A stretch of 47,587 nt of DNA, taken from assembly GCA_949298405.1 (NCBI GenBank), contig CASFWA010000002.1:74048-121634 (forward strand), read 5' to 3'. Position 1 is the stretch's first letter. Every line of letters starts with the position of its first letter. The notes beneath the pieces were generated by a model that was given only the letters and a program-made list of their open reading frames with translations, was not told the DNA's origin and did no database searches. The stretch is from an uncultured Pseudomonadota bacterium. GTDB taxonomy: Bacteria; Pseudomonadota; Alphaproteobacteria; Rs-D84. The translations under genes were made by a program, and so were the position numbers. Shown here piece by piece: positions 39,017 through 46,535 of this stretch.

Positions 39017-39044
39017 TTGATTTAAACTGAGTGTATGTTATCAT
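39017..39044 (+). promoter_or_regulatory. Promoter of the structured RNA and Cys-rich gene pair
   Basis: TTGATT (39017-39022), 16-nt spacer, TATCAT (39039-39044). Predicted start near 39050. The stretch 38906-39016 before it is AT-rich and holds nothing else visible. Confidence 0.55.
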
Positions 39045-39049
39045 AGTGT

Positions 39050-39225
39050 TGATGTGGGGAGTTCTCGCATTGGGCTTAAGAACCCTTTGATCGCGTCTCA
39101 AAAATAAGGACGTTAAAAAATCCAACTTAAACGGTTGGAGTGTGGTGAATATATTGAATAAACCACGCAATTCGATCAATTGTTCTTAAACTCCAACCAC
39201 CTGACTTTTCCGGTGGTTTTCTTTT
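39050..39225 (+). ncRNA. Structured RNA or attenuator leader before the Cys-rich secreted genes
   Basis: A rod of three nested helices closes a three-hairpin core: GTGG-GGAGT with ACTCC-ACCAC (39054-39062 with 39190-39200), TTAAGAAC with GTTCTTAA (39077-39084 with 39182-39189), TTGATCG with CGATCAA (39087-39093 with 39173-39179); inside are hairpins CGTC/GACG, CCAAC/GTTGG and GTGGT/ACCAC (39142-39146 with 39162-39166). Also GGTTGGAGT (39133-39141) can pair with ACTCCAACC instead. At the end AACCACC/GGTGGTT (39195-39201 with 39212-39218) plus TTTTCTTTT is a terminator sharing bases with the closing helix, followed 11 nt later by a Shine-Dalgarno. So it is either a free ncRNA or a switching leader. 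No known riboswitch family is recognised. Confidence 0.6.
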
Positions 39226-39249
39226 AACAAAGAAAAAGGAGATAAGAAT

Positions 39250-39633
39250 ATGAAAAAACTTTTAATAACCATAACGACGATTTATACAATCGTCTTACCA
39301 CCGGCACTTGGCGCATATAAATGCGTTTATTTGGATAATGATACAAGATGTTCGGCAAAATCTCATACTTCTTCTGATTGGTCTGCTACATGTGACGAAA
39401 TAGAAATATCAGGTGTTGCATTCTGTGGTTCTGATGGAGGTGATATAGCAGGTGAGGTTAACGCAAGCGAAACCAGCACTGACAACAAATACTGTTGGTG
39501 TAAAATGGTAAGCCCTGCTGTATCAGACTGGCAATTTGAAAGACAATTTTCAAGCGCGTCTGATTGCTTGACGACATGCACAACAGCATGCTCTGGCATA
39601 CTTTCTATAAACACAGATTGGTTAACAGATTAA
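39250..39633 (+). CDS. Secreted Cys-rich protein, single-domain member of a paired family
   Basis: A 127-residue protein with signal peptide MKKLLITITTIYTIVLPPALGA. The mature part has ten Cys and the motifs ISGVAFCGSDGG, NKYCWCKMVSPAVSDWQF and ASDCLTTCTTACSG, which recur in the following gene. The even number and spacing of Cys suggest a disulfide-stabilised extracytoplasmic domain. AAGGAG precedes the ATG, downstream of the structured RNA. I recognise no named family; role unknown. Confidence 0.65.
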   Translation: MKKLLITITTIYTIVLPPALGAYKCVYLDNDTRCSAKSHTSSDWSATCDEIEISGVAFCGSDGGDIAGEVNASETSTDNKYCWCKMVSPAVSDWQFERQFSSASDCLTTCTTACSGILSINTDWLTD

Positions 39634-39649
39634 TTACAGAGGAAATCAC

Positions 39650-40291
39650 ATGAGAAAAATTTTACTGCCATTTATGGCACTTATTCCAACAGCAACATTT
39701 TCTGCTACTACACCACGAACTACCTGTCCTTCTGGTTATACAACTATTACAGAAAATAACCTTGTAGTAGAAGATACATGTCCAGCAGGCTATAGTTCTG
39801 CAGGCACCGCAAATTCATGCAATGATACTAACGGCCCTTGCATAATGTTTGCAGAAGCAAATACAGAATATAAGGACGCATCAGGAACCTATGTTTTTAC
39901 TTCTGATTGTCCTTTAGACCCCGTGACTAAATGCATTATTACAGAACCTGCAGGCTGTGACTCTTATTCTTTTGCATCAAACTGGTATATGAACTGCAGT
40001 GACCCAGAAACATTTATAACTGGGGTTGCTTTCTGTAGTTCGTTTCAAGATACATCTCCAGATGGCTCTGATGCAATACAAACAACATTACCTGTAAGTA
40101 GTAATCCTAATGATAATAAGTATTGTTGGTGTAAGATGACAAATCCTGCTGTATCAAAATGGGTATCTTCATTTCAAGTATTTGTTTCTGGTTACGGACA
40201 ATGCGCTGCAAACTGTGCAGAAGCATGTGCAGGACATGCAGTTAATGACTCTTTATTCAGAGAACTTTTATGGTCAAATCTATCAGATTAA
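39650..40291 (+). CDS. Secreted Cys-rich protein, longer paralogue of 39250-39633
   Basis: A 213-residue protein with signal peptide MRKILLPFMALIPTATFSA. An N-terminal Cys-containing stretch (TCPSGYTTITENNLVVEDTCP) is followed by a C-terminal domain of about 100 residues that repeats the layout of the upstream gene: ITGVAFCSSFQD, NKYCWCKMTNPAVSKWVSSF and QCAANCAEACAG, with matching Cys positions. They are probably one duplication unit, 16 nt apart, with GAGG before this ATG. A strong terminator follows. Confidence 0.65.
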   Translation: MRKILLPFMALIPTATFSATTPRTTCPSGYTTITENNLVVEDTCPAGYSSAGTANSCNDTNGPCIMFAEANTEYKDASGTYVFTSDCPLDPVTKCIITEPAGCDSYSFASNWYMNCSDPETFITGVAFCSSFQDTSPDGSDAIQTTLPVSSNPNDNKYCWCKMTNPAVSKWVSSFQVFVSGYGQCAANCAEACAGHAVNDSLFRELLWSNLSD

Positions 40292-43250: not shown

Positions 43251-43412
43251 ATCTATACCTCTAAATAATGTTTATTTTCTTAGAACATAACAACAACAGA
43301 TTTAAATACAATAGAAATATTTTTACTTTTTTATTTTCTGCATACCCGCAAATTTTTCATATTGTGTTTTTTACTGTTTATGATAATTTGTTTTTTAACA
43401 AGAGGTTATTAT

Positions 43413-43952
43413 ATGGCATTGGATACAGATACTTTTGACTCGTTAAAAAAAGAATATCAATTTAAGTCTGGGACCGAAAATTGGCATCCGGTAATTATAG
43501 ACGGCAAAGAAATTTTTGATGCTTATGTCGGCATAAGTGGGACAGTTATTTATACCCCTGGGAAACAAATATTGCCAGGAACCAAACTGACCGATAACGA
43601 ATATTCAAAATATGCCTTGCCTACAAAATTAAATACTTCTTGTCTATTAGAGATTATATTAAACGGACAAACTTTACCAGTTCATCGTATTGTTGCAGAA
43701 ACTTTTTTGGAATTGTGCTTTATCTACACACCTGAAGAAATACTAAAAAAACCAGAAAGAGCCAAAAGCAACTTGGAAGAACTTTTAAAAAACAACACTC
43801 AAAAAGGTTGGGTTATTCATCATAAAGATAACAACGCAAATAATAATAGCGTACCTAATTTAGTATGGCTAACCGAAGAAGATCACACAAAAACTCATCC
43901 TAATAAAACTTTTCTTATAAAAAATAAAAAACTATGTAAATCACATATATAA
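43413..43952 (+). CDS. HNH endonuclease-like protein (NUMOD-type)
   Basis: A 179-residue protein with VHRIVAETFLE and a C-terminal HNH: GWVIHHKDNNANNNSVPNLVWLTEEDHTKTH in segments HHKDNNANNNSVPNL and WLTEEDHTKTH. The 'vHr.va..Fl...........viHHkdgn..Nn...NL.wlt..eh...h' pattern is that of HNH homing-type nucleases with NUMOD motifs, often freestanding in phages and plasmids. The ATG at 43413 has AAGAGG upstream; a longer in-frame start adds only a hydrophobic stretch. It ends TAATG, coupling to a tiny frame. Confidence 0.7.
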   Translation: MALDTDTFDSLKKEYQFKSGTENWHPVIIDGKEIFDAYVGISGTVIYTPGKQILPGTKLTDNEYSKYALPTKLNTSCLLEIILNGQTLPVHRIVAETFLELCFIYTPEEILKKPERAKSNLEELLKNNTQKGWVIHHKDNNANNNSVPNLVWLTEEDHTKTHPNKTFLIKNKKLCKSHI

Positions 43953-44023
43953 TGAAAAGATTTAATCCGTATACGACAAAATTGGTCGCATCTATAAATC
44001 CCAACTTTACAAGAAAGTATTAA
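43952..44023 (+). CDS. Candidate 23-codon peptide coupled to the HNH gene
   Basis: The HNH stop overlaps an ATG (TAATG at 43950-43954). The frame MKRFNPYTTKLVASINPNFT plus RKY then ends. It is basic. There is no Shine-Dalgarno of its own; the only support is the overlap. It could easily be chance. Confidence 0.25.
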   Translation: MKRFNPYTTKLVASINPNFTRKY

Positions 44024-44057
44024 TTTATAAAATCTTTATTGTAAAAAAGGTATTTAT

Positions 44058-44846
44058 ATGAATCAGCGGTCAAAAATGCAACCATATTCATTAAGTAAAA
44101 TTCTTCAAAATTCAGATTTTGTATCACCTGAATATAAACTACCAATAATTATAGGGAAAGATATATCTGATAAAATTGTCTGTTATGATTTAAATAAATT
44201 ATCAAGGATATTAATAGCAGGTCGTGAAAAAACAGGAAAAACACATTTAATAAAATTAATTATCTCATCTCTAATTGCGGGAAATACTGCTAATCAGTGT
44301 AAACTTGCGATAATAAATTCAAACAACGATGATTACGAAGAATTTAAAAGTATTCCTCATCTTTTTTGTCCCATTGTTGAATCTGGAGCCGAAGAATCTA
44401 AAAATGTTCTAGAACTACTGATAACAGAACTAAATGATAGACACATAAAAATTCGTCAGCACAATGTAAAAAATATATCTGAATATAACAAAATACCTTC
44501 TGAAAAAATACCTTACTTAGTTATCATAATCGATGATTTTTCTGATTTATATATAACACATCCCCAAGAATTTGAGAATTTTATACAACAAATATCTACT
44601 TTTGGGTGCAGTGTCGGAATTCATATAATTGTATCTACCAAGCACATAACCGAACAAAATTGCACAGATTTTATTGGCGCAAGTTTTACAACACATATAG
44701 CGTTTAAAACAAGTACAGCACCAGAATCCGAACTGATAATCTGGACCCCAGAAGCGGTAAATCTACAAGAACAACACGATATCTTATTAATCGAAACTGC
44801 TAAACCCGCTATACATATAAAAACAAACACTTTCATTGAAAGATAA
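44058..44846 (+). CDS. FtsK/SpoIIIE-like ATPase motor, short form
   Basis: A 262-residue protein with a single P-loop motor: PIIIGKDISDKIVCYDLNKL, ILIAGREKTGKTHLIKLII (Walker A, about residues 56-65), ELLITELNDRHIKI, YLVIIIDDFSDLYIT (Walker B with DD), STFGCSVGIHIIVSTKH and a C-terminal QEQHDILLIE. This is the order of the FtsK beta-type motor ('P.l.iGkd..G.p...dL...PHlLiaG.tGsGKS ... lpyiVviiDE.aDLm'). It lacks the N-terminal membrane domain and the gamma DNA-reading domain of FtsK, so a chromosome-segregation role is doubtful; a mobile-element or conjugation role is likely. AAAAAGG precedes the ATG. Confidence 0.75.
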   Translation: MNQRSKMQPYSLSKILQNSDFVSPEYKLPIIIGKDISDKIVCYDLNKLSRILIAGREKTGKTHLIKLIISSLIAGNTANQCKLAIINSNNDDYEEFKSIPHLFCPIVESGAEESKNVLELLITELNDRHIKIRQHNVKNISEYNKIPSEKIPYLVIIIDDFSDLYITHPQEFENFIQQISTFGCSVGIHIIVSTKHITEQNCTDFIGASFTTHIAFKTSTAPESELIIWTPEAVNLQEQHDILLIETAKPAIHIKTNTFIER

Positions 44847-44877
44847 GCAACCAGTATTTTTTGTTCCCGGTTAATAG

Positions 44878-44910
44878 TGGGAGGAATTCTAATTTTTATC
44901 TCCTCCCACA
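44878..44910. terminator. Inverted repeat between convergent genes, probable terminator
   Basis: GTGGGAGGA (44878-44886) with TCCTCCCAC (44902-44910), 15-nt loop. The tail on the plus strand is short of a T-run until 44922, so strength is uncertain. Confidence 0.45.
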
Positions 44911-44924
44911 CACATTACTCTTTT

Positions 44925-45893
44925 TTATTTTATTTTTAGAATTATTTTCGCTTCTTCATAAGCAGCAGAAACGTTATTTAAATACTTATCAATAATTTCT
45001 TTTCGTAAATCAGTTAATTCCGCATCCCAGCCAACTCTTTGGCTTTTTGGATTATATCTATCAAAGTAATCCCTTAGGTTTCTTAATGTATTTGTCTTTA
45101 TTCCCAATATCGCTGCTGCTTTTTCAAAAGCCTCTGATTGTGTAAGATGTGGATATAAAACTTCATGTCCGCAACTAAAACAAAATGCAACCAAATTAGC
45201 GTTATAATCTGAACTTGCGCCTGCTTGTCTGTTCCCATTACTGACACTATGTTCTGAATTTTTTGCTTTTGTTTCTTTTGTAAACAGCGACCACATCTGT
45301 AAACAACGCATAAATAAATCGCTGGTATCTGAGACACACCTCGATTTTTCTTGAACTGGTAAAAGTATCTGTTCATAAAAGTCTTGATTGCAGATAAACG
45401 AAAATTTGAAATTAAACCCAAGATTATTCATAATTTGTTGTACAAGTTCTGTTCTTTCTTTTAACAAATCTATACAATTTGGTTGAACTTTTGGGCTTGC
45501 AAAAATAATATTCCCCGATTTTAGATTAAAAATAGAATATAACACCAAAGCAGCACGCAACATTTTTGATGTTATTTTCTGCATATTATCAGAGTAAAGC
45601 AAACCATTTTCATGAAAAGCTATATCTATAGCAAACACATCTTTTATAACAGAATTTTCTATTTTTAAACCCAAAACATCCAATTCTGCTTGTAAAATGA
45701 CCTGTTTCGCATTTGATTTTTTAAATATATCTTCTGTGAAACCATCTTTTAATTTTTGCATAATTTGTGCAACTTCTTCTTGATTATAAAAATCCCACGT
45801 ATTTGACGGTTTCCAATTCAAAGTTGCAATTTGACACCCCTGAACGTGCTTTGCCCAAGAAAGCATTAAAGATTCACCCATTTCTATTTTCAT
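44925..45893 (-). CDS. Probable nuclease-family protein of unknown role
   Basis: A 322-residue protein that starts MKIEMGESLMLSWAKHVQGC, then AELDVLGLKIENSVI with FAIDIAFHENGLLYS, IIFASPKVQPN, and a C-terminal block RNLRDYFDRYNPKSQRVGW. The 'qAEiDVlGi......yaiDvAFHE.GlnY' section has the acidic pattern of a PD-(D/E)XK-type core. The same layout occurs in proteins common in gut bacterial accessory regions, but I know no established function. The C-terminal 'RNxRDxFD' motif also occurs in HNH restriction proteins. Two operator-like direct repeats lie upstream. Restriction or defence is inference. Confidence 0.55.
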   Translation of the reverse strand: MKIEMGESLMLSWAKHVQGCQIATLNWKPSNTWDFYNQEEVAQIMQKLKDGFTEDIFKKSNAKQVILQAELDVLGLKIENSVIKDVFAIDIAFHENGLLYSDNMQKITSKMLRAALVLYSIFNLKSGNIIFASPKVQPNCIDLLKERTELVQQIMNNLGFNFKFSFICNQDFYEQILLPVQEKSRCVSDTSDLFMRCLQMWSLFTKETKAKNSEHSVSNGNRQAGASSDYNANLVAFCFSCGHEVLYPHLTQSEAFEKAAAILGIKTNTLRNLRDYFDRYNPKSQRVGWDAELTDLRKEIIDKYLNNVSAAYEEAKIILKIK

Positions 45894-45940
45894 TATCGAC
45901 TCCTTTTTATGTCATCTTTAATTTATTATAATTATAAAAA

Positions 45941-45973
45941 AAACAGAATTTATTTAAAAATAAACAGAATTTA
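45941..45973. repeat. Two direct repeats upstream of the 44925-45893 gene
   Basis: AAACAGAATTTA occurs at 45941-45952 and again at 45962-45973, exactly 21 bp apart (two helical turns), about 50-80 bp before the start codon at 45893. This placement fits a binding site of a dimeric or tandem regulator. Confidence 0.5.
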
Positions 45974-46040
45974 AATAAAATCCCCCCCTATCTGAGTCCT
46001 AATAAAACAAATGAAATTTTGTCTGGGAAACAATAAATGC

Positions 46041-46535
46041 TTATTTATTAAATAAGTTAAATTCTTGGTGTCTGCGATTACTTAAACCCGGCATTTTCCT
46101 GCCATCAGATTTATTCCATGCTTTCCAAGCAGATTCTAATGTTGGGTATTTTGAATTACGATAATTTAAATCATTTACGTATTTTACAACGGTAGAACCA
46201 ACGAAGTTTTTTGCACCTATGTTATACGCCAAAGATACCAGTGCGTCATATTGATTTTGAGATAGCGGGACAGTTATATTGTCTTTAACTGCCTGTTCTG
46301 CTGTTGATATATCCAAGAGCAATATTTCGGTCGCTTGTCTTTCTGTGATACCATTTTTAAAATCTTCACCCGATTTTATTAAATGACCGTAACCAATTGT
46401 TGCGCCCTTAGGTAATTCTTTGTCTAATTTTACAGGTCTTCCTGTTTTATCATCGTAAATAACATGCTTGTCGCCAATTTTAACACTACCTTCAAATCGT
46501 TTTAACATCTTTATACCATTATCGCTGATTTTCAT
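46041..46535 (-). CDS. GH24 lysozyme (phage-type endolysin)
   Basis: A 164-residue muramidase. KISDNGIKMLKRFEGSV carries the catalytic Glu, KGATIGYGHLIKSGEDF the conserved 'tiGyGh' with the Thr, and QNQYDALVSLAYNIGAKNF, then WNKSDGRKMPGLSNRRHQEFNLF the C-terminal signature. This is the T4/P22-type GH24 layout; the family's second acidic residue is in IYDDKTG. Length is typical (150-170). No signal peptide. It is apart from the prophage module at 1-5233 and faces the nuclease-like gene, so it may be a second phage remnant. GAAAATAAGG precedes the ATG. Confidence 0.85.
   Translation of the reverse strand: MKISDNGIKMLKRFEGSVKIGDKHVIYDDKTGRPVKLDKELPKGATIGYGHLIKSGEDFKNGITERQATEILLLDISTAEQAVKDNITVPLSQNQYDALVSLAYNIGAKNFVGSTVVKYVNDLNYRNSKYPTLESAWKAWNKSDGRKMPGLSNRRHQEFNLFNK

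Follow-up and report, generated by a model that had tools for sequence, protein, structure and literature searches.

The question raised by this locus is what kind of RNA runs ahead of two genes for Cys-rich secreted proteins at positions 39017 to 39249 of the window, by which we mean the whole 47,587-nt stretch of DNA that was analysed. A sequence-only reading had seen there a structured leader or noncoding RNA with mutually exclusive helices, and had proposed either a ligand or protein sensor or an independent ncRNA. We think, with a probability of about 0.8, that the region is a C4-type antisense-RNA module that serves as the leader of a secreted-protein operon and is fused to an attenuator. 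C4-type RNAs are known mainly from phages. The stretch 39017-39225 folds to a minimum free energy of -58.5 kcal/mol, compared with -43.5 (sd 4.0) in dinucleotide shuffles (z -3.77), and none of the 200 shuffles folds as low. Its parts, and the genes that follow, are these:

39017..39044, + strand: sigma-70-like promoter, TTGATT at 39017-39022, 16 nt, then TATCAT at 39039-39044 (pattern match 9/12)
39051..39071, + strand: hairpin P0, 39051-39058 with 39064-39071, loop GAGTT (96% paired, two-sided changes at 8/8 pairs)
39072..39085, + strand: hairpin PA, GGG/CCC, with a1 (TTAAGAAC, 39076-39083) in its loop
39087..39093, + strand: b1, TTGATCG, complementary to b'
39094..39112, + strand: hairpin PC, 39094-39097 with 39109-39112 (98% paired, two-sided changes at 4/4 pairs)
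39121..39139, + strand: hairpin PD, 39121-39126 with 39134-39139, which excludes X (94% paired, two-sided changes at 6/8 pairs)
39133..39201, + strand: C4-like RNA domain, comprising helix X (39133-39141 with 39190-39198), PE, PF with b' in its loop, a' and ACC
39140..39168, + strand: hairpin PE, 39140-39146 with 39162-39168, conserved loop GAATATATTGAATAA
39168..39182, + strand: hairpin PF, CAATT/AATTG (alignment columns 287:313 are A-U in 58 copies and U-A in 33)
39173..39179, + strand: b', CGATCAA, in the loop of PF, antisense to b1
39182..39189, + strand: a', GTTCTTAA, antisense to both a1 and the spacer that separates Shine-Dalgarno from AUG
39195..39225, + strand: intrinsic terminator, AACCACC/GGTGGTT and a T-run, its 5' arm overlapping the 3' strand of X
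39236-39241, + strand: Shine-Dalgarno AAGGAG, read from the sequence
39243..39248, + strand: a2-like complement of a', TAAGAA, in the Shine-Dalgarno-ATG spacer
39250, + strand: ATG start codon of the first secreted gene, read from the sequence
39250..39633, + strand: gene 1, a 127-aa Cys-rich secreted protein with no Pfam match
39650..40291, + strand: gene 2, a 213-aa Cys-rich secreted protein with only a weak, sub-threshold cEGF match

Sequence and covariation together establish the order of promoter, P0, looped a1, b1, three-stem RNA, terminator sharing a strand with X, and gene. Transcription most likely starts near 39050, judging from the promoter. An overlapping pair of boxes in the window copy, TTAACA/TATGTT, scores equally with TTGATT/TATCAT; across 111 copies the promoter score is 9.1 versus 5.3 in shuffled sequence, and among the 81 whose promoter is good, 75 have 4-5 nt between the end of the -10 box and the start of the model. 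Because of this spacing, 39017-39048 is promoter and not leader, so the leader once drawn over 39017-39249 keeps its structure and loses its first part, the RNA most likely starting near 39050. The other landmarks were read correctly from the beginning: the alternative partner GGTTGGAGT lies at 39133-39141 and pairs with ACTCCAACC at 39190-39198, and the terminator said to share AACCACC just before the Shine-Dalgarno is found as AACCACC (39195-39201), GGTGGTT (39212-39218) and TTCTTTT. The gene at 39650..40291 is likely in the same operon as that at 39250..39633. Further along the window, genes for an HNH endonuclease, an FtsK-like ATPase and a phage lysozyme cluster at 43362-46535, possibly the remains of a mobile element.

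The element is far from unique. Searched as DNA, the window element turned up six more times in its own genome (0.9 Mb) and was present in 27 of 40 relatives. R1, a covariance model that we built from 24 copies, recovers 10 strong copies in the same genome (at least 10 in total). Within the genus it matches 55 of 59 genomes, and within the order (presumably Rs-D84) 129 of 142, spread over 16 of 20 genera; a class-wide draw of 385 genomes gave 15 with a match, 11 of these outside the order. The highest count in one genome is at least 52, every one of the 52 candidates scored there being a match, and a phylum-wide genome draw yielded no further genome with an R1 match. Named records with the core pattern come from the guts of ruminants, poultry and termites and belong to Candidatus Enterousia or its relatives. 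Published work assigns Enterousia to the uncultured order Rs-D84, with genomes that mostly stay below 1 Mb and a way of life that is likely symbiotic or parasitic (PMC12306168). Some copies form tandem arrays of 3 to 5 units, each unit with its own promoter and terminator. At one locus (L051), an intact tRNA gene followed by a partial tRNA duplicate lies 5' of a three-unit array and resembles an integration scar. Three IMG/VR viral contigs (L245, L246, L247) carry full copies of the element at 105.9-109.1 bits. A phage or plasmid origin was sought by direct search and set aside, the core pattern turning up in three viral contigs only.

Covariation in relatives, whose absence the sequence-only reading had named as one sign that it was wrong, is plain. 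The nested fold tested consists of P0, a1:a', b1:b', PC, PD and PE; in an alignment of 111 copies that was itself fitted to that fold, 95.1% of cells in paired positions are paired, two-sided changes occur in 39 of 41 pairs, and the covariation score is 0.75 versus 0.20 when shuffled and at most 0.09 when slid. The two long-range helices share in this, with a1:a' 94% paired and two-sided changes at 8/8 pairs, and b1:b' about 96% paired with two-sided changes at every core pair. X, PF and PA lie outside the fitted model and were tested on the same nested-fold alignment. The alternative helix between 39133-39141 and 39190-39198, which joins the 3' strand of PD to the 3' ACTCCAACC, covaries across the 111 copies, with two-sided changes at five pairs and columns 228:325 reading G-C in 62 copies and U-A in 34, and in two distant copies (L252, L253) both X partners are kept in other letters, GGCAGGAAG with CTTCCTGCC. 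PA covaries too, more weakly than X and PF; the register one base over was tried and has no covariation support. The stem of PE is variable and covarying while its loop is nearly constant, and in distant alphaproteobacterial copies (L252-L257) that loop takes the form of an internal loop topped by an additional apical stem, itself variable and flanked by the conserved letters, which suggests a binding site for some partner. An integron attC site was considered for the palindrome GGTTGGAG..CTCCAACC and rejected by inspection: the AAC/GTT ends point the opposite way, L boxes are missing, and the covariation of the arms is that of an RNA.

Since X and PD share one strand, and X and the terminator share AACC, the element has two mutually exclusive states. 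The terminator overlaps X in 102 of the 111 copies. The self-paired fold is favoured in 94/111 copies without the terminator and in 103/111 with it; in the window copy the two folds are nearly equal before the terminator (-33.8 and -33.3 kcal/mol) and about 16 kcal/mol apart once it is included (-59.4 for the self-paired fold versus -43.5). The core of the sequence-only reading, in which helices exclude each other and a terminator overlaps them upstream of secreted genes, is thereby borne out by covariation and by conserved placement. GG opens X in 101/111 copies and R-C-Y follows X in 98/111, which is compatible with RNase P processing at GGW, though R-C-Y is also needed by the terminator.

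What identifies the module is its likeness to the c4 locus of phages P1 and P7. In the P1 record the order after the promoter is a1 (48255-48261), b1 (48269-48276), C4 (48343-48419, 77 nt), a2, b2 and icd. P1 C4 folds into a closing stem, a hairpin and a second hairpin, in the loop of which lies b' (TCACTAAC, the complement of b1); a' (CTGTCAA, the complement of a1) follows, and after it the closing strand. Our element keeps the same order: promoter, P0, PA with a1, b1, X, PE, PF with b', a', X and gene. Rfam's c4-a1b1 family places on P1 a hairpin and then a second hairpin with a1 in its loop, and P0 occupies the position of the first, with a1 in the loop of the second as in PA; in both systems GGU opens the C4 domain, and its end is CC-rich. 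We find two features of C4 in the window: an RNA of three stems, its helices X, PE and PF covarying, that carries b' in the loop of a hairpin and a' between this hairpin and the closing stem, and upstream sites a1 and b1 complementary to a' and b', a1 lying in a loop after another hairpin. There are also differences from P1. Here a terminator overlaps X, whereas P1 is without one; PD competes with X, and we found no b2; the genes are secreted and Cys-rich or XRE-like rather than icd/ant, and there are tens of copies per genome. Nor does the likeness extend to Rfam scores. RF01695 (C4), which shares clan CL00128 with RF03163 (c4-a1b1) and has a gathering score of 45 bits, gives 68.8 bits on P1. 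In the window it finds nothing, whether at its cut-off or with E allowed up to 10, and it is likewise without a match in six genomes, three of Enterousia and three of distant carriers (G000, G065, G075, G446, G375 and G424); the sequence model of RF03163 does not match the window either. The Rfam C4 model is blind to the Enterousia copies, and therefore membership in C4 by score fails. More generally, the earlier remark that known families do not match holds for the window, where Rfam has no family at cut-off apart from three tRNAs elsewhere, and Rfam 15 at E up to 10 gives chance matches only (best nqrA-II, 19.9 of 55 bits).

A second relative is sRNA-Xcc1 (RF02221). Descriptions to date reportedly treat it as an RNA that acts in trans and is governed by virulence regulators; in Rfam it belongs to no clan and has a gathering score of 53 bits. 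That cut-off is not reached by any of our copies, the best match being 50.4 bits in the Enterousia group and 52.9 among distant Alphaproteobacteria; even so, RF02221 scores 45.4 and 42.3 bits (E 6e-5 and 4e-4) on the X domain of distant alphaproteobacterial copies, and in Enterousia several of its sub-threshold matches fall on the 3' halves of copies and share their 3' ends with independent R1 matches (e.g. G065:C1:583573, G000:C1:250928). Alignments (L254, L264, L250) show the sRNA-Xcc1 architecture in our copies, an X-closed domain with two hairpins and a conserved internal loop; the two share the X-PE-PF-a' domain with its AAUA..GAAUAA internal loop, and sRNA-Xcc1 loci have upstream a1/b1 sites as well. 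Known sRNA-Xcc1 copies lie in Xanthomonas integron cassettes, upstream of symE (PMC2996969, PMC12444791). We sampled 20 sRNA-Xcc1 loci from other Proteobacteria (L280-L299), and several of them, judged by eye, precede antirepressor-like frames of KilA-N, BRO-N, P22_AR_N and Rha types. By sequence sRNA-Xcc1 itself appears to be C4-type, because in these loci a' is complementary to upstream sites (z 7.8) and b' to downstream sites (z 7.3) far above permutations. The loci differ from ours in that they usually have an early hairpin and T-run between b1 and the RNA, and in that clear a2/b2 sites lie round the gene start. The competing PD pairing is not significant at them (z 1.1, p 0.14), and for that reason we claim competition of PD with X for the alphaproteobacterial copies only. 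Enterousia also holds a second, sRNA-Xcc1-like subtype (L310, G000:C1:320397-320489; L311, G000:C1:262661-262752; L312-L315 in G065), mostly with a terminator and with secreted proteins downstream; R1 misses it, so the true number of modules per genome exceeds the count. The layout shared with phage C4 could have arisen by convergence, which we favour less because the link to sRNA-Xcc1 argues against it.

The a and b sequences vary almost freely between copies and keep their complementarity. In the copy-rich genome G065, the own a1/b1 is the best partner of a'/b' in 27 of 29 copies (mean -16.0 vs -3.0 kcal/mol), and the combinations of a and b are all different among 30 copies. Most copies having a code of their own, we would expect them to act largely independently; one tandem pair in the window's own genome has nearly identical codes, so that this independence is not absolute. 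Within tandem arrays the codes are swapped as modules, the P0 and X strands staying near constant. Neutral drift of the helices could be another source of both the fit to own targets and the distinct codes. The match of a' to a second site at the start of the gene also speaks for the module: a' is complementary to its own spacer between Shine-Dalgarno and AUG beyond permutation (n=76, z 4.5, p 0.001 or less), also when one copy per distinct a1 is kept (n=57, z 2.6, p 0.007), and the window spacer, GAUAAGAAUAUG, contains UAAGAA. Permutation tests for a b2 site near the start codon in Enterousia gave no signal.

Taken together, these pairings suggest a switch, whose direction we infer as follows. 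In a first state, a1:a' and b1:b' would pair in cis, PD would form, X would be blocked and the terminator would fold, turning the gene off; in a second state X would form and block the terminator, so that transcription could pass. Self-pairing with early termination is probably the default. A processing enzyme such as RNase P may cut before 39133, and the X-closed RNA, a C4-like molecule of about 70 nt, could then leave the transcript with a' and b' available for pairing. We would predict that such a released RNA targets, in trans, the a1/b1 of its own copy and, by way of a2, the start region of the mRNA of that copy, and that it could repress this start. One published account reports that RNase P cuts P1 C4 at a GGW-type site, and that the C4-like sRNAs of Acinetobacter baumannii are processed at a GGW site and highly expressed (PMC5320573).

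The genes downstream fit a leader. A Shine-Dalgarno and start codon lie 40-55 nt past the element in nearly every copy that stands alone or comes last in its array. In G065, 14 of 24 leader genes (58%) encode a signal-peptide-like start, the share among reading frames at large being 23.5% (p 2e-4); leader proteins with such a start contain 7.2% Cys versus 2.6% in other such proteins; these values come from about 0.7 Mb read with home-made gene and signal-peptide rules and are approximate. Modules often stand ahead of Cys-rich secreted or small DNA-binding proteins. Helix-turn-helix families account for a minority of 69 leader proteins, no single model matching more than 9; one protein matches an outer-membrane barrel, one a glycosyltransferase, and most have no match; neither an antirepressor nor icd was met among the downstream genes, which encode secreted, helix-turn-helix and other proteins instead.

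Three other explanations have to be weighed. The one that survives best, though we consider it unlikely, is that the RNA is an independent trans-acting sRNA gene that merely sits 5' of the secreted genes, these having a promoter of their own after 39225. The tandem units, each with promoter and terminator, would suit such a gene, as would the processed and highly expressed C4-like sRNAs of A. baumannii (PMC5320573). Yet the gap from terminator to start codon is only about 25-30 nt and near constant across copies, which leaves little room for another promoter, and a' has its match in the stretch separating Shine-Dalgarno from AUG. Of the options in the sequence-only reading, the independent ncRNA nonetheless came closest: the RNA is structured, and it probably acts on its own leader and mRNA.

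We give still less credence to an attenuator of a new class, in which the PE loop GAAUAUAUUGAAUAA would bind a ligand or protein and decide between X and the terminator, a1/b1 pairing being structural only. Such a device would explain why the PE loop is conserved, why exclusive folds overlap a terminator, and why many copies, some in tandem, lie ahead of related kinds of genes. But the complementary a and b segments are among the most variable parts, the layout equals that of C4, the conserved PE loop is also found in sRNA-Xcc1 as an internal loop, a' also matches the gene start region, and no Rfam riboswitch matches at cut-off or at E up to 10. The sensor first proposed for this DNA is kept as a rival only: we found no supporting evidence for it, and the two variable long-range helices correspond to a1:a' and b1:b', the complementarities of an antisense RNA of the C4 type. 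That the element is a mobile, MITE-like repeat whose structure serves its own spread, with no regulatory role, is very improbable, for although copies are many, form tandem arrays and in one case adjoin a partial tRNA duplicate, their position and orientation are fixed relative to gene starts, signal-peptide genes are enriched behind them as given above, and compensatory changes persist across very divergent copies.

Why, then, does a C4-type module matter here? It is ordinary in kind, and unusual in its number, its setting and its fused attenuator. Novelty is limited because A. baumannii already offers a chromosomal set of C4-like RNAs in multiple copies; there, Group 1 C4-like sRNAs with variable a' occur in many chromosomal copies in one genome, much as here (PMC5320573). 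Those RNAs differ in being reported as Rfam C4 matches, and the portion of the report we draw on contains no description of them as leaders of a secreted repertoire with an overlapping terminator (PMC5320573). In an alphaproteobacterial order with genomes of about 1 Mb or less, up to tens of loci per genome carry the module, enriched ahead of the Cys-rich secreted proteins, those likeliest to meet host or neighbouring cells. The comparison also links sRNA-Xcc1, which Rfam leaves unplaced, to the C4 clan and suggests a testable mechanism for it, and because so many natural copies differ in their codes in known ways, the rules of specificity can be tested directly. We speculate, quite tentatively and with the odds against us, that an RNA of phage immunity has been turned into a genome-wide series of independent, code-specific RNA switches, each of which would hold a single gene of a rapidly evolving secreted and regulatory repertoire on or off, new specificities arising as a and b codes are shuffled between tandem copies. 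Another multi-copy case of C4 turned up in genome G750 (L303-L305), in which 13 Rfam C4 matches lie above the cut-off.
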